The notes under the pieces were generated by a model, which ran no database searches, was not told where the DNA came from, and was given only the letters and a program-made list of their open reading frames with translations. From Candidatus Poribacteria bacterium (GTDB lineage: Bacteria; Poribacteria; DTPJ01; WJIO01), in assembly GCA_014730235.1 (NCBI GenBank), contig WJIO01000282.1:1-10711 (forward strand): a DNA stretch of 10,711 bases, written 5' to 3'. Both the position numbers and the translations under genes were made by a program. Numbering within the stretch: position 1 is the first letter of the stretch; each line of letters begins with the position of its first letter. Shown piece after piece: positions 1 to 10,711 of this stretch.

Positions 1-1262
1 CCAAGATAGAAAAAGAAGAAATGCGCAAATCTATCCTTGAAAACCAAAGCCGCGTGGATGGACGTAGTCTATCAGAAATAAGACCGATAAGCTGTGAAAT
101 CGGTGTTTTCCCACGGACTCATGGCTCAGCTTTATTTACTCGTGGTCAGACTCAGGCTCTGGGTGTTATTACCCTGGGTATTTCGGGAGACGAAGAACTT
201 ATTAAAGACCTGGAAGGTAAATGGACGCGACGTTTTATGCTTCATTATAACTTCCCACCATTTAGCGTTGGTGAAGTTCGACCTATCAGAGGACCAGGTC
301 GTCGGGAAATTGGACATGGAGCTCTGGCTGAAAGAGCTTTGGGCCCGGTTATGCCCGATGAAGAAGAATTCCCCTATGCAATACGGGTTGTATCAGAAGT
401 TCTGGAATCCAACGGATCATCATCTATGGCAAGCGTGTGCGTAGCTACATTAGCTCTTATGGATGCTGGTGTTCCTATAAAAGAACCTGTAGCGGGTATT
501 GGTATGGGACTGGTCAAAGAGGGTGATAAAATAGCGATTCTGACTGATATGGTTGGTGTAGAAGATGCCCTGGGTGATATGGACTTTAAGATCGCGGGTA
601 CCAGAGATGGTATTACATCCGTACAAATGGATATAAAAATCGAGGGGGTAACAAAGGAGATAATGCTCCAGGCTATGATGCAGGCCAAGGAAGCCCGAAA
701 TTATATTTTGGATAAAATGGCTGATGCCATCGCAGAACCTCGAAGCGATATATCCCTCTACGCACCAAGAATTGTGTCAATAACTATACCTGTAGATAAA
801 ATAAAAGATGTAATTGGTCCGGGCGGAAAAGTTATAAAGAAAATGCAGGACGATTTTGAGGTACAAATCGAAATTGAAAACGATGGAACAGTAAACATTG
901 CTTCCATCGATAGAGAAGCTGCTGAAAATGTAATCGAAACCATACGTTCTCTTACAGAAGAACCGGAAGTCGGTAAAATATATAATGGTAAAGTAACAAG
1001 CGTAACTAATTATGGAGCTTTTGTTGAGATCCTTCCCGGACAAGAAGGCCTACTTCATATTTCCGAACTGGCAGATGGTTATGTAAGAAAAGTTGAGGAT
1101 GTTATTAATACCGGTGACGAGGTTACAGTTAAGCTTGTTGAGATTGATAAGCTTGGTAGACTTAACCTGAGCAGGAAAGCGGCAATAGATAACGACGGTT
1201 CAAAACCTCAAGGCAAGCGTCCCCGAAAGGCATTAAGGTTGCCAAAGGATAGAAGACGCTGA
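1..1262 (+). CDS. pnp: Polynucleotide phosphorylase, C-terminal part (5' end outside window)
   Basis: Phosphorolytic 3'-5' exoribonuclease of mRNA decay; it normally works as a cytoplasmic trimer. The reading frame is open back to the first base (K-I-E-K-E-E before the ATG at 21), so that ATG is internal and the gene is cut by the window edge. Residues below count from the methionine at 21. The second RNase PH domain spans about 10-235 and carries [16 protein letters not shown] and the catalytic-site motif GDMDFK (D186, D188). The residue before it reads GVEDALGD, which I recall as the Bacillus-type rather than E. coli-type version. A KH domain follows, with the GxxG loop GPGG at 266-269, then an S1 domain at about 318-388 ([19 protein letters not shown]...LSRKA). 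The protein ends in a short basic tail and tandem stops TGA-TAG. Family identity is secure. Confidence 0.97.
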
Positions 1263-1278
1263 TAGTAAGGAGGAAGGT

Positions 1279-1566
1279 ATGGGAAGCGGACAAGAAAGTT
1301 CTGGATTTCTAGGTAGCAAATGGATGACAATAATCCTAGTTGTTATACTGGTAATTCTGGCAGCCATTTTCATATGGGCTCTCAGAAGCGGATGGTTTTA
1401 CAAAGTCGGCAGAAAGAAAGCTACTACTCCAAACGATGATTTTCAGCCCGGTGGTGCTATGAATCAACAGTTTTATAAAACCGATGAATATGTTGAGTTA
1501 AGGGATATTAATCCAAAATTAAGGTTAGCAGCTCAACTTTCTTGGGAAAAACCTGTTGTTTCATAG
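1279..1566 (+). CDS. Small single-pass membrane protein of unknown function
   Basis: A 95-aa protein starting 16 bp after pnp, with a strong Shine-Dalgarno AAGGAGG (1267-1273) 5 bp before the ATG, so it is very likely translated from the pnp transcript. It has one hydrophobic segment at about residues 16-35 (MTIILVVILVILAAIFIWAL), followed by a basic stretch (R36, K42, R45-K47). By the positive-inside rule this predicts a short N-terminal tail outside and a 55-residue polar C-terminal part in the cytoplasm. The tail is rich in N, Q and charged residues and has no cysteine motif or domain I recognise. I do not know its function. The gene looks real because of the ribosome site, the spacing and the clear membrane segment. 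Confidence 0.75.
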   Translation: MGSGQESSGFLGSKWMTIILVVILVILAAIFIWALRSGWFYKVGRKKATTPNDDFQPGGAMNQQFYKTDEYVELRDINPKLRLAAQLSWEKPVVS

Positions 1567-1586
1567 TAAAAACTTTGTTTAGTTTT

Positions 1587-1592
1587 AGGAGG
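1587..1592 (+). promoter_or_regulatory. Ribosome binding site with unusually long spacing
   Basis: A perfect AGGAGG lies 19 bp before the only available ATG (1612) of the LptE-like gene, far beyond the usual 5-9 bp. The frame is open back to a TAA at 1567-1569 but contains no ATG, GTG or TTG between, so no better-spaced start exists in that frame. Either the start is poorly translated, or an AU-rich spacer is looped, or initiation uses a rare codon. Confidence 0.5.
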
Positions 1593-1611
1593 ATTATCTT
1601 TCAGTAAAAGT

Positions 1612-2112
1612 ATGCTAAAATTAAGAATCAAGCATATTTTCATATTACCATTTTTACTATCTGCTCTTTTTTCTGGATGTGGCTATAGATCCAGATCAGA
1701 CCTTCTCAGACATATAAGAACAGTAACAATATCACCCATAAACAATGAAACAGTTGAATATGGACTTGAGGAGGATCTGGCAGACGCGATCAGAGACGAA
1801 TTCTCCAGAACATGGGGAGAAGGTACGGATTCCATATTTACAGCGACAATAAAGGAATATGAAATCCTGCCCATAAGTCTGGATCAAAATGGTCAACCAG
1901 AACAATATCGCTTGTTTATAGTAATGTCTTTTGTATTTGAAGACCTTAAGCGTAACAAGATACTCCGAAACGAAAAAAATTACGAGCAGTTCCACGACTT
2001 CTATGTTGTTTCTGACCGGAGTGAACCGCCAGAAACTTTGCCAGAGGCTAAGGAAAAGCTTATTGATGAAGTGGCGGCAGATATTGTAAGCAGCATTGTA
2101 GAGGAATGGTAA
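1612..2112 (+). CDS. lptE: LptE-like LPS-assembly lipoprotein
   Basis: A 166-aa predicted outer-membrane lipoprotein. LptE plugs the LptD beta-barrel and helps insert lipopolysaccharide into the outer leaflet. The signal peptide is clear: basic MLKLRIKH, a hydrophobic core at 9-20, then a lipobox-like LFSGC with the lipidated cysteine at C23. The mature protein opens CGY and runs through an LptE-type pattern: L-x2-HIRTVTISPINNETVEYGLEEDLADAI, then a beta-rich region with I-x-EYEILPISLDQNGQ-x-EQYRLFIV, and a final amphipathic helix EAKEKLIDEVAADIVSSIVEEW. Length is normal for the family. The sequence is divergent, so the call rests on pattern recognition; a generic DUF-type lipoprotein is the alternative. 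The gene is followed by a strong terminator-like palindrome, so it probably ends the pnp transcript. Confidence 0.75.
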   Translation: MLKLRIKHIFILPFLLSALFSGCGYRSRSDLLRHIRTVTISPINNETVEYGLEEDLADAIRDEFSRTWGEGTDSIFTATIKEYEILPISLDQNGQPEQYRLFIVMSFVFEDLKRNKILRNEKNYEQFHDFYVVSDRSEPPETLPEAKEKLIDEVAADIVSSIVEEW

Positions 2113-2136
2113 TCGAAAGCAATTCTCCTGAAAACT

Positions 2137-2196
2137 AACATGGCAAAATAAAACCACGAAATGATTAATCATTTCGTGGTTTTATTTTGCCATGTT
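2137..2196. repeat. Perfect 60-bp palindrome
   Basis: Two 30-base arms match without a mismatch or spacer; the centre is GATT|AATC at 2166/2167. The outer parts are GGCAAAATAAAA and its complement, and the inner parts are CCACGAAATGATT and its complement. Matching stops abruptly at both ends (T2136/C2197), and no target-site duplication flanks it. Perfect spacer-less palindromes of this size are unstable in replicating DNA, so this one is either recent or kept for a function. Confidence 0.95.
2154..2188 (+). terminator. Bidirectional rho-independent terminator
   Basis: The inner stem of the palindrome (2154-2179, CCACGAAATGATT paired with its complement) is followed directly by TTTTATTTT (2180-2188) and preceded by the mirror-image A tract (2145-2153). 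This gives a 13-bp stem with a U-rich tail on either strand. On the + strand it sits 41 bp after the LptE-like stop codon, in the right place to end the pnp transcript. The stem is not very GC-rich; its strength comes from length and the U tract. Confidence 0.7.
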
Positions 2197-2227
2197 CTTA
2201 CGTTGCGGAATACCTGAATAACAGTGT

Positions 2228-2256
2228 TTGTTTTCTATTATGGTAGCCATAATACT
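2228..2256 (+). promoter_or_regulatory. Possible promoter with overlapping operator-like inverted repeat
   Basis: TTGTTT (2228-2233) and AATACT (2251-2256) are 17 bp apart, a tolerable sigma-70 pair. An inverted repeat TATTATGG-tag-CCATAATA (2236-2254; 8-bp arms, 3-bp spacer) fills the spacer and overlaps the -10. This geometry suits a repressor operator. It lies after the terminator and upstream of the DUF362 operon. The base composition is AT-rich, so chance matches are likely. Confidence 0.25.
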
Positions 2257-2331
2257 TAATTTACTAACAAAATAGATTCTTCCAAATTTAGTGATTAAAA
2301 CATTTAGCACAGTAATACAAAACTTCAATAC

Positions 2332-2361
2332 TGTCATTCCTGCTAAGGCAGGAATCCAGTC
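2332..2361 (+). repeat. Dispersed hairpin repeat (VIPAKAGIQ type), single copy
   Basis: TGTCATTCCTGC-taag-GCAGGAATCCAGTC matches the first copy in the pair at 7469-7545 at 27 of 30 positions. The core CCTGC-TAAG-GCAGG forms a small hairpin. Read in one frame, this family encodes the peptide VIPAKAGIQ, widely seen as a spurious protein in bacterial databases. It is a non-coding dispersed repeat, and here it stands alone. Confidence 0.85.
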
Positions 2362-2385
2362 GTTATGTAAATCTTCTATAGAACT

Positions 2386-2568
2386 GAGCTTTCTCAGAAA
2401 TTATAGACCCTTTATTGACAAGGGTTCTCGGAATCTGGGGATCGGAGATCAATCCCGCTTTTACTGTTATTATGTTGATGTGTCAAATCGCCGATCCTGT
2501 ATTGCCGTATATAGCAGCAACAATTTTCAGATTTTTGACTTTCCGCTTAGGAATTTCTGAGAAGGCTC
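2386..2568. mobile_element. MITE-like element 1 (183 bp, TIRs and 5-bp target duplication)
   Basis: The terminal inverted repeats are GAGCTTTCTCAGAAATT (2386-2402) and the complement of 2552-2568, matching at 16 of 17 positions. The element is flanked on both sides by the direct repeat GAACT (2381-2385 and 2569-2573), as expected of a target-site duplication. It encodes no transposase, so it would have moved only with help in trans. Inside it, GGATCGG (2439-2445) pairs with CCGATCC (2491-2497). Its right end is 30 bp from the start codon of the DUF362 gene, so its inner part may act as a leader or supply promoter elements. I do not recognise the parent IS family. Confidence 0.72.
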
Positions 2569-2598
2569 GAACTTTGAATAAAAAATTGGGGTGAATAT

Positions 2599-3555
2599 AT
2601 GTCAGAAAAAATAAATCGCAGGGATTTTATCAAGGGATTGGCTGTTGCCAGTGCAGGTATATATGGTCTACAATCATCTAACTCCATTATCATACCTGAT
2701 AAACAAGCTTTAGCACAAGTCGCGACAAATACTATAATGGTAGTTGCCCAGGGTAATATTGAAAAAGGCCCGGAACCGGAAATTATTAAAAAAGTTACAA
2801 GGGAATCTGTAGCTGCATTAGGTGGTATGGGTAGATTTGTAAGTAAAAAAGATACTGTACTTGTTAAACCCAATATCGGCTGGAATCGAACCCCGGAACA
2901 AGCGGCGAATACAAATCCATATGTGGTGGAAGCCGTTGTTGAAATGTGCAAAGAAGCCGGTGCTAAAAAGGTTAAAGTTATAGATTATCCGGTAAATTCT
3001 GCTCGTATAACGTATTCGCGAAGCGGTATAAAGGATGCTGTTGATCGTGCTGACGGTTCAATGGAATTTGCCGATGAGCGCAAGTTTAAGGAAAAGTCCA
3101 TACCCGAAGGTGAAATGTTAAAATCCTGGCATATATATCAGGACGCTCTGGATGCCGATGTTCTCATAAATATACCAATTGCTAAACACCATTCACTGAC
3201 TAAACTCACCCTTGGCACAAAGAACCTTATGGGTTTGGTTCTCAAACGTGAACAACTACACACCCGCATTGATCAGAAGCTGGCAGATTTATCCACTGTA
3301 ATAAAACCCAACCTGGTAATAATGGACGCATACAGAACCTTAACCTCTCACGGCCCTAATGGTGGTACTCCAAGGGATGTAAAGCTGGTTGGTCAGATTA
3401 TTGCCGGTACTGATATGGTAGCTGTTGATTCCTATGCAGCTACGCTCTTCGGCTTAACTGGTGAGGAAATAGGTTATATAAAAGAATCATATGAAAGAGG
3501 CTTGGGAGAGATTGAACTGGGTAAAGTCGCCACTAAAAATGTAGAAGTAGCTTAA
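2599..3555 (+). CDS. DUF362 family protein with Tat signal peptide
   Basis: A 318-aa protein. The N-terminus is a textbook twin-arginine signal (NRRDFIK at residues 6-12, then the hydrophobic stretch GLAVASAGIYGL and a likely cleavage after ALA-Q), so it is probably folded in the cytoplasm and exported. The rest matches the DUF362 family: the opening strand-loop around VLVKPNIGWN, VVEAVVEMCKEAGAKKVKVID, DADVLINIPIAKHH with LTLGTKNLMGLV, and the closing DMVAVDSYAATLFGL. Only one cysteine is present, so unlike the DUF362-ferredoxin fusions it carries no Fe-S cluster of its own. A GGGGTGA ribosome site (2588-2594) supports the start. It heads an operon with the NapHG-like and AOR genes. The biochemical role is unknown; a periplasmic partner or maturation factor of the redox complex is my inference. 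Confidence 0.88.
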   Translation: MSEKINRRDFIKGLAVASAGIYGLQSSNSIIIPDKQALAQVATNTIMVVAQGNIEKGPEPEIIKKVTRESVAALGGMGRFVSKKDTVLVKPNIGWNRTPEQAANTNPYVVEAVVEMCKEAGAKKVKVIDYPVNSARITYSRSGIKDAVDRADGSMEFADERKFKEKSIPEGEMLKSWHIYQDALDADVLINIPIAKHHSLTKLTLGTKNLMGLVLKREQLHTRIDQKLADLSTVIKPNLVIMDAYRTLTSHGPNGGTPRDVKLVGQIIAGTDMVAVDSYAATLFGLTGEEIGYIKESYERGLGEIELGKVATKNVEVA

Positions 3556-3611
3556 ACAAATATATTTCATAATATAATTTTTACAAAAATACCCACCTTA
3601 AAAAGATATAT

Positions 3612-5243
3612 ATGTTCAGAAACATAAGACGAATTATACAAATATTATTTCTACTTTTCTTTATATTTTTACTAATCAAAACAGTATATCCTGCGGATTT
3701 TCCCATACCTCTGGACTTTTTTCCAAGGTATCTTGATCCCCTGGCGGCTTCTGCTACCATGCTGGCCTCCCGAAGCATTAGTATGCTCATTATACCCATG
3801 TTAATTGTAATAATCCTGGCCTTGCTTTTGGGTAGATTCTTCTGCGGGTGGATATGTCCCATGGGTACAACCATTGATATATCCGACAGAATCCTTTTTC
3901 GACGGTTCAAACGTCCTAAAATCAAACATAATCCCAGGCTCAGGAATCTAAAATATTACATCCTTGTGGCCTTTATAGTAGGTGCAGCATTCAGTCTGCA
4001 AATGATCTGGTTTGCTGACCCCATAAGCATTGTAACCAGAAGCTACGGTGTTATATTATATCCATATTTCAGTTATGTCACCCGGTCAACCTTTGATACG
4101 CTATATCTTATAAAGGGTGTTAATCTTATATCTGAACCTATATACGGGGTTCTCAGAAACAACGTATTAACTCTGTTTCAGCCTACTTCCCGGATGCTGA
4201 TCCTGTTTTTCAGCGTGTTTGCAGTTATAATATCCCTCAGCATAATCCAACGGCGGTTTTGGTGCAGAAATCTTTGTCCACTGGGTGCGCTTCATGGTCT
4301 GCTGTCTACGAGGTTGAACTTTTGGCGCAGACGGGTAAACGAAAACTGTATAGAGTGCGGAAAATGCCGCCGGGAGTGTGGACTAGGCGCAATTCCTGAA
4401 GATCCCAGAAAATACTGGCCCCAGGAGTGCACCGAATGTATGTCATGTCGGGATGTGTGCCCTGTAAATGCCATAAGCTTCGGCCTCAAACAGCCGTTCT
4501 TTGACAAACCAAAGACTACCGGCCTGAATCTGTCCCGGCGATCCTTTGTAAAATCGGCTTTGGCGGGTATTGCCGCAGTTCCACTGCTAAAGCTTAATTA
4601 CTCCAAAAAGAAGATGGATGAAGCTGTTATACGCCCCCCTGGTTCTCTGCCTGAAGAACAATTTCTGGATAAGTGCATAAGATGCGGCGAGTGCATGAAG
4701 GTGTGCCCTACCAACGGCCTACAACCAGCATTTATGGAAGCAGGTGTAGAGGGAATAGGCACGCCTATTCTGGTTCCAGAGGTGGGTTACTGCGAGTATG
4801 TATGCACGTCATGCACAAAAATATGCCCTACAGACGCCATAATACCCCTTAAAGAAAAAGAAAAGCAGTCTATAAAGATCGGTACAGCCCGTATTGACAA
4901 AGATCGCTGTATACCCTGGAGCGAATACGAAAACTGCCTTGTTTGCGAGGAACAGTGTCCTGTTCCCACAAAAGCCATTAAGTTTGAGACAAAGGACGTG
5001 GTGACATTTAACGGCGAAATCAGAAGGCTTAAAATGCCTGTGGTATTAAAGGACAAGTGCATCGGATGTGGTATATGCGAAAACAAATGTCCCGTAAGCC
5101 CAAAAGCCGCTATCCTTGTAACAGGACAGATACCCGGTAAGGAGTCTCACGGTGGTTTGCATAAAGCCGCTGATACATCAACCATGGAGCAACCAAGCCC
5201 ACAAGCCGTTGGTAAGATAAAAGTACCAGGACAAGAGGAATAG
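3612..5243 (+). CDS. NapH-NapG-like polyferredoxin fusion with internal Tat motif
   Basis: A 543-aa membrane electron-transfer protein. The N-terminal half is NapH-like: hydrophobic segments near residues 8-24, 58-75, 120-138 and 194-212, the two CxxxCP motifs C78-C82-P and C218-C222-P, then two [4Fe-4S] motifs (C246, 249, 252, 256 and C273, 276, 279, 283). A twin-arginine motif follows at SRRSFVK (308-314) with a hydrophobic run to 328, where a separate NapG would begin. The C-terminal half has four more clusters (C355-365; C394, 398, 401, 405; C433, 442, 445, 449; C483-493). NapGH-type proteins move electrons between quinol and periplasmic enzymes; the exact partner here is unknown. Spacing to DUF362 is 56 AT-rich bp, with no clear Shine-Dalgarno before the ATG. 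The AOR gene starts 1 bp after its stop, so the two are probably translationally coupled. Confidence 0.9.
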   Translation: MFRNIRRIIQILFLLFFIFLLIKTVYPADFPIPLDFFPRYLDPLAASATMLASRSISMLIIPMLIVIILALLLGRFFCGWICPMGTTIDISDRILFRRFKRPKIKHNPRLRNLKYYILVAFIVGAAFSLQMIWFADPISIVTRSYGVILYPYFSYVTRSTFDTLYLIKGVNLISEPIYGVLRNNVLTLFQPTSRMLILFFSVFAVIISLSIIQRRFWCRNLCPLGALHGLLSTRLNFWRRRVNENCIECGKCRRECGLGAIPEDPRKYWPQECTECMSCRDVCPVNAISFGLKQPFFDKPKTTGLNLSRRSFVKSALAGIAAVPLLKLNYSKKKMDEAVIRPPGSLPEEQFLDKCIRCGECMKVCPTNGLQPAFMEAGVEGIGTPILVPEVGYCEYVCTSCTKICPTDAIIPLKEKEKQSIKIGTARIDKDRCIPWSEYENCLVCEEQCPVPTKAIKFETKDVVTFNGEIRRLKMPVVLKDKCIGCGICENKCPVSPKAAILVTGQIPGKESHGGLHKAADTSTMEQPSPQAVGKIKVPGQEE

Positions 5244-5244
5244 T

Positions 5245-7131
5245 ATGGAAAAACGCTACATCCTTAAAATAGATGCAGAAAACAGGAGCTATACTCTGGA
5301 TGATATTGATCCTCAGAACATGCAAGAATTTGAGGGAGAGGATTACTCGATTCTATGGGGAGAAGCCTTAGCCCAGTATCTTCTGCGTCAGAATCCAGAA
5401 TATCTGGTAATAGCCCGAGGCCCTCTTGTGCGTTTTCCCGCCACCAAAACCACCGTAGGATATATATCACCCATGACAAGTTTACCCCATTACAGCTTTG
5501 TCGGTGGTAACAGTTTCCGGGAGATATGGTCATTGGGACTTGCAGCAGTGATATTCACAAATCCCCTCGATGAAACACCGGATTTTTACGTTGATGTTTC
5601 CGGTGAAGTTCCTGATTTACAGGTTAGATTTGTAACAGATGAAAATCTGCCAAAAGAGCAGAGGTCAGCCTACTATTACCTTGTATCCAAAGAGCTTGAT
5701 GGTCATGGCTTATGGGGAAGCGTTTATACTCTGGGTAATGCCGCTTATAATAATTACCTTTCAGCCAATATAGCCGTTGAAGCTATATATCATGCTGGAA
5801 GAGGCGGAGCCGGATTTGTTATGGGTAAATTTGCAAAGGCCCTGGTGCTACATTCAGGAAAGCGGCATAGTTATGATCCCGAAGGCCTGCCGCTGGAAGT
5901 CTTTAAACGTCTTGATAAATACGGCTCCCGGTTAAGTTGTAAAGACGCAGGCACAATCATAAAACTGGCAGCTACAGGTAAAGACCCAGCAGGGAAAAAC
6001 ACCCTTCCAGCCCTGAATGCTCAGAAGCTTGGTTATCCCATGGCAGAGATCGCCGAAGGTGACATACTGCTGGCAACCCGGGAGGGTAAGACTGGATGTT
6101 ACTGGTGTCCTGTAACCTGTCGTCATTTTCATACCATGTCTGTGGATTATTCCCCCAACGGTAAAGACAAATTTCTGGATGACTTCGAGCCGGCCTATTC
6201 CGTCTATGCCATGTTGAATATCCTGGCGGAAGAGGATACAAAGCGTTCCAAAATCAAGATGCTGGAGGATGTTGACCGGGAGATATTTCTTCTAATCGAG
6301 CAGATGGGGCTTGACGTTATTGACGTGGGTGTGGGTATATCTGCCCTATACGAGGGTATTTCCAGAGGTATAATACCCCTGTCGGATGTGCCTGAATTTT
6401 TGCACCAAAGGGATCAGAACTTCGGCAGCATAGAAAAAACTCACCGGGTATTGGATTTAATCAAGGAAAATAACCATATTTACAAGGTTTTAAGCTGTAT
6501 TGGCGATGGGCCTCAGGCTTTGGTTAAAGCCTACCCCGAAATGCAGGATTATGTTTTTACATGTGGCAAAGGCACTCTGGGCAACGCCGGTCACTGTAAT
6601 AAGTTGTGGACTTTCCTGATGCCTTTCTCACGATTCTTTAGCCACTATTCTGGTCAGATATACAAGGTTTCCGGTAATATCCCCGACGACCCCAACCCAG
6701 ATAATTTACATAAGCTGTTCACAGATGTTGTGAATGAGATGTTTAAAAGAGAATATTTCAGCATCCTTTGTAATGTCCTCTCCTGCTGTGCCTTTGGATT
6801 TGTGATATTTACAGAAGACGGTAAAGGCATAGAACTTGACAGGGATGAACTGCTGGTGGATGTGCTGAAATTCTATGATATACAAACATCTCGCAGGGAA
6901 CTTATGCGCTTTGCCCGAAATTTCTGGGCCCAATCCACAGATTTCAAGATACAACACGGCTGGAAACCCCTGAAAGCCCAAGATTTCCCCCACCGAATAT
7001 ACGAAGCTGTGTCCCAGGCCATATCTCACCCGCCGGAAAAATGCCATGAAATGATGGACATACTGATACAGGTATGGAAACAAAAAGCCCGTCAGGTCAT
7101 GAATATATATGGCTACCAACCGGACTGGTGA
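5245..7131 (+). CDS. Aldehyde:ferredoxin oxidoreductase family tungstoenzyme
   Basis: A 628-aa protein close to the usual AOR length (about 600). The family binds a tungsten-bis-pyranopterin and one [4Fe-4S] cluster and oxidises aldehydes to acids, or in the BamB branch reduces benzoyl-CoA. Cluster cysteines are visible as C285-x2-C288-x3-C292, almost the same numbering as in Pyrococcus AOR, with C515 as the likely fourth. The two pterin motifs DxxGL(D/C) appear as E352-QMGLD and N510-VLSCC, so the leading Asp is Glu and Asn. An N-terminal domain-1 pattern (ILWGEALAQYLL...LVIARGPL) is recognisable but divergent. There is no signal peptide, so it is cytoplasmic. GAGGA (5235-5239) is its ribosome site and overlaps the end of the upstream gene. 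The substrate cannot be told from sequence; the NapHG-like neighbour is the likely electron partner. Confidence 0.9.
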   Translation: MEKRYILKIDAENRSYTLDDIDPQNMQEFEGEDYSILWGEALAQYLLRQNPEYLVIARGPLVRFPATKTTVGYISPMTSLPHYSFVGGNSFREIWSLGLAAVIFTNPLDETPDFYVDVSGEVPDLQVRFVTDENLPKEQRSAYYYLVSKELDGHGLWGSVYTLGNAAYNNYLSANIAVEAIYHAGRGGAGFVMGKFAKALVLHSGKRHSYDPEGLPLEVFKRLDKYGSRLSCKDAGTIIKLAATGKDPAGKNTLPALNAQKLGYPMAEIAEGDILLATREGKTGCYWCPVTCRHFHTMSVDYSPNGKDKFLDDFEPAYSVYAMLNILAEEDTKRSKIKMLEDVDREIFLLIEQMGLDVIDVGVGISALYEGISRGIIPLSDVPEFLHQRDQNFGSIEKTHRVLDLIKENNHIYKVLSCIGDGPQALVKAYPEMQDYVFTCGKGTLGNAGHCNKLWTFLMPFSRFFSHYSGQIYKVSGNIPDDPNPDNLHKLFTDVVNEMFKREYFSILCNVLSCCAFGFVIFTEDGKGIELDRDELLVDVLKFYDIQTSRRELMRFARNFWAQSTDFKIQHGWKPLKAQDFPHRIYEAVSQAISHPPEKCHEMMDILIQVWKQKARQVMNIYGYQPDW

Positions 7132-7135
7132 TCCT

Positions 7136-7381
7136 ATGACACCTGCCAATAATGAAGAATCCGCACTATATGGACTAAAGTTGTACGTTGATCGCTACGG
7201 CAACGCTGTATCCAATCTCCTGCAACAGGCTGGGATCAGCGTTATCCAGTCTCCCGCCTGTTTCAAAATCCTGCATACCAGCTTTCCCGGAAGTTTCAAA
7301 GAACTAACTCAAAAGATACCCGAACTTACCCTTTATCCGGTGAAACAGTATAGATGGTGGCATCGAATAACAGAAAATTAG
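7136..7381 (+). CDS. Small hypothetical protein downstream of AOR
   Basis: An 81-aa ORF beginning 4 bp after the AOR stop. I chose the ATG at 7136 because GGTGA (7126-7130) lies 5 bp before it; an in-frame ATG at 7109 inside AOR would give 90 aa but has no ribosome site. The protein is soluble and has no domain I recognise. It contains an amphipathic helix-like start (EESALYGLKLYVDRYGNAVSNLLQQAG) and an aromatic, basic end (VKQYRWWHRITEN). It could be a small accessory subunit of the AOR complex, the remnant of a longer gene, or a chance ORF. Its position at the end of a tightly packed operon is the main reason to keep it. Confidence 0.45.
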   Translation: MTPANNEESALYGLKLYVDRYGNAVSNLLQQAGISVIQSPACFKILHTSFPGSFKELTQKIPELTLYPVKQYRWWHRITEN

Positions 7382-7438: not shown

Positions 7439-7610
7439 GTAATCGTTAAAAAATAGATATAATTTAGTTGTCATTCCTGCGAAAGCAGGGATCCAGTCTC
7501 CCAGGATAGTGTTTTTTCTGGATCCCTGCTTTCGCAGGAATGACAAATTTTGTAATTTACCATAATTATAAAGGTATTCTCTAAACACATTTTCATTTTT
7601 TAACGATTAC
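7439..7610. mobile_element. MITE-like element 2 (172 bp, perfect TIRs and target duplication)
   Basis: The terminal inverted repeats are perfect over 16 bp: GTAATCGTTAAAAAAT at 7439-7454 and ATTTTTTAACGATTAC at 7595-7610. The direct repeat CATAT flanks both ends (7434-7438 and 7611-7615). The duplication may be longer, because TACCATAT occurs at 7431-7438 and at 7608-7615, overlapping the right terminal repeat by three bases. No transposase is encoded. The element carries the inverted pair of hairpin repeats in its interior. It fills most of the 270-bp gap between the small ORF and the propeller gene; its right end is 41 bp from that gene's start codon. Confidence 0.72.
7469..7545. repeat. 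Inverted pair of VIPAKAGIQ-type hairpin repeats
   Basis: Bases 7469-7496 are perfectly complementary to 7518-7545 (28 bp), separated by a 21-bp spacer. Each half contains its own small hairpin CCTGC-GAAA-GCAGG (or its complement), so the DNA or RNA could fold as one long stem or two short GAAA-capped hairpins. The flanks AATTTAGT (7461-7468) and AATTTTGT (7546-7553) agree at 7 of 8 positions, which hints at an insertion inside MITE-like element 2. In RNA this could also end transcription, but no U tract follows directly. Confidence 0.85.
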
Positions 7611-9695: not shown

Positions 9696-10711
9696 ATGTC
9701 GAAATTATTTGAACCGAAAAACTTAGGTAACATAAACATCAAAAACAGGCTTGTCAGGTCTGCCACTGCCGAAGGTGCTTCAGATGAAGATGGGCAGATA
9801 AGGGACGAAATAATTGATATATACAGGGATCTGGCATCAGGCGGGGTAGGGCTAATAATCACCGGCCATGCTTATGTGCATCCTCCAGGTAGATGTTCAG
9901 TAAATCAGATGGGCATACACAGGGATGAACTCATGCCCGGTCTGCACAGGATAACTGATTGTGTCCACAGTATCGCTCCTGAATGTAAGATAGCCGTCCA
10001 ATTATCCCATGCAGGACGACAGGCAGCCCCTAACAGCGTTTCTGATCCTGTTGCGCCATCATCGGTAAAGGATACAGCCACAGGTATAACACCAAGGGAA
10101 ATGACGGAGGATGAAATCCTGGAATGTATAGGATGTTTTGCCGACAGCGCGGAAAGAGTTAAGAAATGCGGCTTTGATGGGGTTCAGCTTCACGGAGCCC
10201 ATGGCTATCTCATAAGTTCATTTAACTCGCCGCATACTAACAGAAGGGCCGACAAATGGGGTGGAACTCCTGAGAATCGAATGCGTTTCGTTGTGGAAAC
10301 CTACCGAAGCGTCAGAAAAAAGGTGGGTGACGACTTCCCGGTATTTATAAAACTCAACGCTTATGACTTTGTGGATGGCGGCATAGAAATAGAGGAAAGC
10401 TCCCGGATCGCTGCTGTTCTGGCCCAGGAGGGCATTGACGGCATAGAGGTCAGCGGTGGTATGTATGAAAGCTATAGAGGCAAAGGCGTAGTGCGCATGA
10501 GGATACGCAAGCCCAAGCAGGAAGCGTACTTTCTGCCTTATGCTGAGAAGATAAAGCAAGCTGTGGGTGATGTGCCGGTTATGCTGGTGGGAGGTATACG
10601 ATCTACATCTGTTATGAATGAAATACTGGACAACGGTTATGCTGATTTCATTTCCCTCTGTCGACCGTTAATCAGGGAAGCTGACCTGCCGAATAAAATA
10701 AAGCAGAATAA
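9696..10711 (+). CDS. Old Yellow Enzyme family NADH:flavin oxidoreductase (3' end outside window)
   Basis: The frame is open from the ATG at 9696 to the window edge, at least 338 codons. AGGAGG (9685-9690) lies 5 bp before the start. It is an FMN TIM barrel of the YqjM/2,4-dienoyl-CoA reductase type: SKLFEPKNLGNINIKNRLVRSA at the N-terminus, QLSHAGRQ, then the active-site segment VQLHGAHGYLISSFNSPHTNR, with H166 and H169 at the substrate-anion positions and Y171 as likely proton donor, matching YqjM H164, H167 and Y169. The motif NRRADKWGG and the phosphate-binding MLVGGIRS follow. Around residue 24, where YqjM has its flavin-tuning cysteine, this protein reads RSATAEG without Cys. The visible end, CRPLIREADLPNKI, is where short members end or where the larger Fe-S/FAD-containing enoate reductases continue; which type this is cannot be decided here. 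It is co-transcribed with the two genes before it. Confidence 0.93.
   Translation, partial: MSKLFEPKNLGNINIKNRLVRSATAEGASDEDGQIRDEIIDIYRDLASGGVGLIITGHAYVHPPGRCSVNQMGIHRDELMPGLHRITDCVHSIAPECKIAVQLSHAGRQAAPNSVSDPVAPSSVKDTATGITPREMTEDEILECIGCFADSAERVKKCGFDGVQLHGAHGYLISSFNSPHTNRRADKWGGTPENRMRFVVETYRSVRKKVGDDFPVFIKLNAYDFVDGGIEIEESSRIAAVLAQEGIDGIEVSGGMYESYRGKGVVRMRIRKPKQEAYFLPYAEKIKQAVGDVPVMLVGGIRSTSVMNEILDNGYADFISLCRPLIREADLPNKIKQN

Follow-up and report, generated by a model that had tools for sequence, protein, structure and literature searches.

A DUF362–polyferredoxin gene pair found in many phyla and a divergent AOR-family gene behind it in one Poribacteria lineage

The genes for a DUF362 protein and a membrane polyferredoxin, here called PFD, form an old two-gene unit that recurs in many phyla, other Poribacteria included, without the type of AOR-family gene that stands directly behind them in the Candidatus Poribacteria contig analyzed here. 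The trio, which an earlier note had put forward as an undescribed redox module, is not a conserved module. We think it probable, though well short of certain, that the locus joins the conserved DUF362–PFD unit to a lineage-specific AOR rider and that the two act mostly separately. The module claim is thereby corrected, and attention shifts to the two-gene unit kept across many phyla, which is the under-described item of the locus.

Gene layout of the contig

The window, that is, the whole stretch of DNA analyzed, is the complete contig C219 (10,711 bp) of a 5.5-Mb genome that is 92% complete, and the readable context ends at the contig ends. The contig begins with a PNPase gene, followed by an unknown ORF, an LptE-like gene, the DUF362, PFD and AOR genes, an orphan ORF, genes for an NHL-repeat protein and a GFO/IDH oxidoreductase and, truncated at the contig end, an old-yellow-enzyme gene. 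The features of the locus are:

2599..3555, + strand: DUF362 (PF04015) protein, 318 aa, with an N-terminal twin-arginine signal (PF04015, 182 bits)
3612..5243, + strand: polyferredoxin PFD, a NapH–NapG fusion, 543 aa (NapG model, 115 bits; NapH model, 92 bits)
4524..4580, + strand: PFD residues ~305–323, LNLSRRSFVKSALAGIAAV, comprising the internal Tat motif and a hydrophobic stretch
5245..7131, + strand: divergent AOR/WOR-family protein, 628 aa, without export signal (AFOR_N, AFOR_C)
7109..7381, + strand: orphan ORF, 90 aa (81 aa from the ATG at 7136), with coding-like codon use

The DUF362, PFD and AOR genes are all on the + strand and are separated by 56 bp and 1 bp, respectively, the PFD stop codon occupying 5241–5243 and the AOR ATG starting at 5245. 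The operon-like packing of three co-directional genes and the 1-bp spacing between PFD and AOR, both pointed out in the earlier note, are thus borne out by the coordinates. With such spacing, co-expression of AOR and PFD is very likely, which makes functional coupling plausible in this lineage. Since PFD and AOR are alike in GC3 (0.444 and 0.452), nothing points to a recent arrival of AOR from a foreign source, and a foreign origin, considered on the basis of base composition, was rejected for lack of signal. The orphan ORF, which overlaps the end of AOR or starts just behind it, is a candidate, if unproven, member of the operon; it matches no Pfam or NCBIfam model and has no relative in any fetched locus.

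Several other elements of the contig were noted. Behind the LptE-like gene lies a perfect, spacer-free 60-nt palindrome with 30-nt arms (2137–2196), possibly a bidirectional terminator, for which 93 kb of this genome yielded no second copy. A dispersed repeat (TGTCATTCCTGCGAAAGCAGG...) occurs at 2332–2361 and 7468–7546, on either side of the DUF362–PFD–AOR block, the latter copy being a 29-bp inverted repeat; since those 93 kb contain approximately 13 copies of it, this flanking may be due to chance. The gene at 9696–10711 that runs off the contig end is old-yellow-enzyme/2-enoate-reductase-like and scored highest with the mycofactocin OYE, NamA and BaiCD models, all below their cut-offs.

The DUF362–PFD pair

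PFD contains two Fer4_5 domains plus Fer4, arranged as a NapH-like part followed by a NapG-like part, which agrees with its earlier description as a transmembrane polyferredoxin. In PFD, an internal twin-arginine motif (LSRRSF, with the arginines at 309–310) separates 12 N-terminal cysteines from 16 C-terminal ones, and the total of 28 is exactly what seven four-iron clusters require. In PMC5449189, a dual Sec-Tat polyferredoxin from a delta-proteobacterium (MLMS-1 Q1NSB0) is likewise presented as a NapH–NapG fusion. Three of its clusters are cytoplasmic and four extracellular, its last helix depends on Tat, and it has relatives in Chloroflexi, Nitrospirae and Euryarchaeota. PFD, in which NapH-like and NapG-like parts lie in one chain with the twin arginines between them and cysteines for seven clusters, matches this family as it is described in that text, the material used for the comparison. 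The fusion is thus not new in itself. By analogy with the family, the stretch at residues ~305–323 is expected to be the last transmembrane helix, and the C-terminal part is predicted to undergo Tat-dependent translocation. In this topology, the exported DUF362 protein would share the periplasm with the NapG-like clusters, and AOR would share the cytoplasm with the three clusters of the NapH-like part.

Using a profile of four PFDs, we collected the 80 best relatives in named genomes. They belong to Nitrospirae, Deltaproteobacteria, KSB1, Neomarinimicrobiota, Spirochaetota, Acidobacteria, Anaerolineae, Omnitrophota, Krumholzibacteriia, Scalindua, Methanoperedens and other groups. In 75 of the 80 loci, tblastn detected a DUF362 gene no more than 3 kb from PFD, just upstream in 72 and just downstream in three; three more loci are cut by a contig end, and two have no DUF362 gene nearby, although in one of these it is found ~7 kb away. 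In the 62 loci with both genes called, the median gap is 2 bp and many of the pairs overlap by 4 bases; a twin-arginine motif is present in 49 of the 53 paired DUF362 proteins. No third gene is common to the pair loci: no family recurs in more than two of 63 downstream or more than five of 56 upstream neighbors, and no AOR family is among the flanking neighbors listed. The AOR type of the window is absent from all 80 loci, and an AOR of any type is found in the flanks of two (L078 and L084). Both are ordinary AORs and were rejected as partners of the pair, being judged parts of separate operons: the one in L078 is on the opposite strand, 5 kb away, and the one in L084 stands behind an alcohol-dehydrogenase-like gene. 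The PFD, alcohol-dehydrogenase-like and ordinary AOR genes of L084 follow one another on one strand (276–5581).

Within Poribacteria, PFD relatives occur in seven of 84 genomes. In four of them (G003, G004, G007 and G011), DUF362 is beside PFD, with one ORF between the two in G004, and there is no AOR. In the nearest relative (G001, same order; PFD at 67%, on a 3,098-bp contig), PFD is followed by a convergent aquaporin gene. Two Poribacteria loci with a more distant PFD type have an aldo/keto-reductase-like gene after it (L029, 7679–8857, and L031, 5145–5933) whose product has a twin-arginine-like N-terminus. Neither PFD nor AOR was found in viral contigs. No description of the pair or of the trio was found in the open-licence literature, which is weak evidence of novelty.

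The DUF362 protein has the Tat motif INRRDFIKG and a single cysteine, C117, so its characterization in the earlier note as exported and devoid of a cluster of its own holds. Its structure, modeled from 52 aligned sequences with a pLDDT of 92.6, gave Z scores of 15.4–18.5 to 12 LarA-family entries over ~205 residues (next best, 5.7) and Foldseek E-values down to 1e-6. From this model, the region of residues ~53–287 is confidently predicted to adopt the N-terminal fold of the nickel-pincer lactate racemase LarA. An hmmsearch of the PDB with the DUF362 profile returned no relative, and LarA was found by fold comparison alone; consistent with the predicted fold, DUF362 and DUF2088 are placed in one Pfam clan (PMC11770544), CL0471, the LarA superfamily. 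The invariant residues of DUF362 are Lys90, Asn92, Asp187, Lys196, His198, Lys208, His221, Asp243 and Asp277. The spacing of 10 between His198 and Lys208 equals that of LarA His174 and Lys184 (LarA numbers from PMC11770544), which is a hint only, whereas Lys208 and His221 are 13 apart as against 16 for LarA Lys184 and His200. Lys208 and His221 are candidate counterparts of the NPN-binding Arg75/Lys184/His200 set of LarA.

LarC (PF01969), taken as a marker of NPN synthesis, was found in every Poribacteria genome tested, whether or not it has PFD; the seven PFD-bearing ones, with the genome of the window among them, all have it. Outside Poribacteria, 30 of 50 pair-bearing genomes have a LarC match and 20 have none, counted irrespective of genome completeness. 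In the Poribacteria genomes G004, G019, G020 and G022, LarC is in two overlapping pieces in different frames, resembling a frameshift.

The AOR-family gene

The AOR protein passes the Pfam cut-offs with low scores (AFOR_N, 55.9 bits against 29.8; AFOR_C, 50.5 bits against 27), and a two-row AOR profile aligned with ordinary AORs over 510 columns at 99% probability in hhalign. The cluster ligands C285, C288, C292 and C515, in both the window AOR and its relative L112, align with C288, C291, C295 and C494 of PfAOR. Identity is only 16–22% to PfAOR, FOR, AorB, the paralogues from the same genome and two AORs from other loci. In the tree, the window AOR and L112 are grouped with full support, and a branch 2.1 changes per site long sets them apart. 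Judged by these alignments, the window AOR is a deep, divergent branch of the AOR/WOR family and a putative tungsten or molybdenum enzyme.

Aldehyde-oxidizing WorL members have a second shell consisting of Thr243, Glu313, Tyr427 and His448, and in YdhV and GAPOR, changes in this shell accompany other or altered chemistry (PMC12096430). In the alignments of the window AOR, no match to Thr243 or Tyr427 was found, the Tyr427/DPRG region being unrecognizable, and the counterparts of Glu313 and His448 are E315 and H467 in MAFFT but S319 and H450 in hhalign. A structure model built from three aligned rows had a pLDDT of 34 and was discarded, so the active-site residues lack firm placement. Since the two alignment methods disagree and the model is unusable, the label of aldehyde oxidoreductase is unwarranted. 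Of the cytoplasmic tungstoenzyme proposed in the earlier note, what is supported is an AOR-family protein that lacks an export signal.

The search for relatives of the window AOR covered about 1,350 genomes and produced one, L112/L113, with 48% identity over query residues 3–625. It was the single match in 350 genomes of the phylum of the Anaerolineae locus; there were none in 83 other Poribacteria (E 1e-20), in 50 pair-bearing genomes (1e-10) or in genomes of the phyla of the KSB1 (0/82), Desulfobulbaceae (0/395) and Scalindua (0/392) loci. An exact-peptide scan of genome contigs with the window AOR likewise found no relative, and plasmid-borne candidates were rejected as distant haloarchaeal AORs (23–24%). 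The L112/L113 AOR is a single gene, and its neighbors, among them genes for hydrogenase maturation and formate dehydrogenase, are on the opposite strand; neither DUF362 nor PFD lies within about 8–9 kb. The earlier note had proposed a neighborhood survey of this AOR clade and had held that an AOR found without the other two genes in relatives would make the arrangement incidental. This refuting outcome is the one observed, with a single relative: the sole AOR relative is solitary, so that the usual solitariness of the clade rests on n = 1, a genome that alone represents its order and class in the sample. The genome of the window has five further AOR-family genes, on C281, C135, C277, C191 and C142, and one of them (L013, 5943–8433) is YdhV-like and located behind a ferredoxin-type gene.

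Competing explanations and known systems

In a true three-part module, PFD would connect the cytoplasmic AOR with quinone or with the periplasmic DUF362 protein, and AOR would feed in electrons from aldehydes or draw electrons to reduce acids. The 1-bp spacing is consistent with such an arrangement, as are the lack of an export signal in AOR, which would put it on the same side of the membrane as three PFD clusters, and the known pairing of WorL with the polyferredoxin subunits WorS, AorA and BamC. We nevertheless regard it as unlikely, because the window AOR is missing from all 80 pair loci and all 50 pair-bearing genomes, its single relative is solitary, and PFD is not a small soluble subunit of the WorS type. 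Greater weight, though still short of an even chance, is given to the opposite extreme, in which AOR came to lie behind the pair through a chance insertion and has nothing in common with it but the promoter, exchanging no electrons with PFD. The absence of the association everywhere else sampled and the dispersed repeats on both sides of the block point to this, but the tight spacing, the intact reading frames and the similar GC3 values, with no mark of recent foreign insertion, speak against it.

Another explanation concerns DUF362, which would be an NPN enzyme exported in folded form with its cofactor, PFD supplying or draining electrons so that the hidden-redox chemistry of NPN becomes net redox. 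The LarA N-terminal-domain fold (Z up to 18.5), the invariant H198, K208 and H221 with the LarA-like His–Lys spacing of 10, the suitability of Tat export for folded cofactor proteins and the presence of LarC in the genome of the window all agree with this idea. It is quite unlikely given that 20 of the 50 pair-bearing genomes outside Poribacteria have no LarC match, that LarC occurs in Poribacteria irrespective of PFD and that K208 and H221 are 13 rather than 16 residues apart. Least probable, and by our estimate very unlikely, is that the locus encodes a Class V WOR, membrane-coupled and Tat-linked, of a new type that falls outside clade 41. Class V is recognized by an adjacent WorS-like iron-sulfur protein with a Tat signal and/or transmembrane segments (PMC13328260), and with PFD 1 bp upstream the layout would qualify under this gene-context rule. 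However, Class V has been published only in clade 41, of the YdhV type (PMC13328260), the association of AOR with PFD is not conserved, and PFD, as it sits with DUF362 elsewhere, is not a dedicated WorS. In addition, the YdhV/BamB clades carry an extra Cys metal ligand (PMC12096430; the YdhV Cys336 type), whereas the window AOR and L112 have no conserved Cys between C292 and C509; the paralogue L013 has one Cys in the region matching this site.

Under the preferred reading, a conserved pair with a rider, PFD would span the membrane with three [4Fe-4S] clusters in the cytoplasm and four on the periplasmic side of its Tat-dependent last helix and would carry electrons to the periplasm, with quinol or a cytoplasmic donor as their source, or in the reverse direction. 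The exported LarA-fold DUF362 protein would be its periplasmic partner, either a redox enzyme or a cofactor-binding acceptor. AOR, which follows the pair in no lineage but this one of Poribacteria and is probably on a shared transcript, would most likely work alone in the cytoplasm with soluble ferredoxin, like other simple AORs. Opportunistic electron exchange with the cytoplasmic PFD clusters is conceivable, and coupling of AOR to the membrane or to DUF362–PFD in this one lineage is possible.

A bolder proposal, which we hold to be decidedly improbable, is that DUF362–PFD constitutes an unrecognized, widespread periplasmic redox system in which a LarA fold is wired through PFD to quinone or cytoplasmic donors, and that one Poribacteria lineage attached a deep-clade tungstoenzyme to it as a cytoplasmic electron source. 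If true, it would mean net-redox use of a racemase fold.

The confidently predicted LarA-type fold offers a concrete starting point for the DUF362 family, which has no assigned function, in the form of a cofactor and a Lys/His pocket; the PFD half of the pair has been published, as far as the available part of PMC5449189 goes, as a protein-targeting model only; and the window AOR adds a deep, uncharacterized branch to the WOR family.

Comparison with known systems also qualifies the word undescribed, as the earlier note had used it, since the NapHG fusion appears in PMC5449189 and membrane-coupled WORs appear as Class V in PMC13328260. The window AOR shares AFOR_N/AFOR_C, the four cluster cysteines and a full-length profile match with the WorL family (PfAOR, FOR, AorB and GAPOR; PMC12096430, PMC13328260) but differs from the members tested in its low identity and long branch (2.1 changes per column). 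Like the Class V WORs of E. coli (YdhVYWXUT) and Cetobacterium (WOR41), it is encoded beside a Tat-linked membrane iron-sulfur protein; unlike them, it is not clade 41-like, and what stands next to it is not a WorS but a NapHG fusion of 543 aa, the partner of DUF362; nor is the association conserved. PFD has the component domains and expected topology of NapGH, the quinol dehydrogenase of periplasmic nitrate reduction, but is a single fused chain that scores far under the NapG and NapH equivalog cut-offs, and the window contains no nitrate reductase. With the dual Sec-Tat polyferredoxin, as presented in the available part of PMC5449189, PFD shares the NapH-then-NapG order, a wide phylum spread and a set of seven [4Fe-4S] clusters, of which three precede the internal twin-arginine motif and four follow it; that account deals with protein targeting, and neither a DUF362 partner nor an AOR is its subject there. 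Finally, DUF362 resembles LarA in its predicted fold (~53–287) and invariant His/Lys set, whereas it is exported, shorter, only 8–12% identical and paired with an electron-transfer protein.
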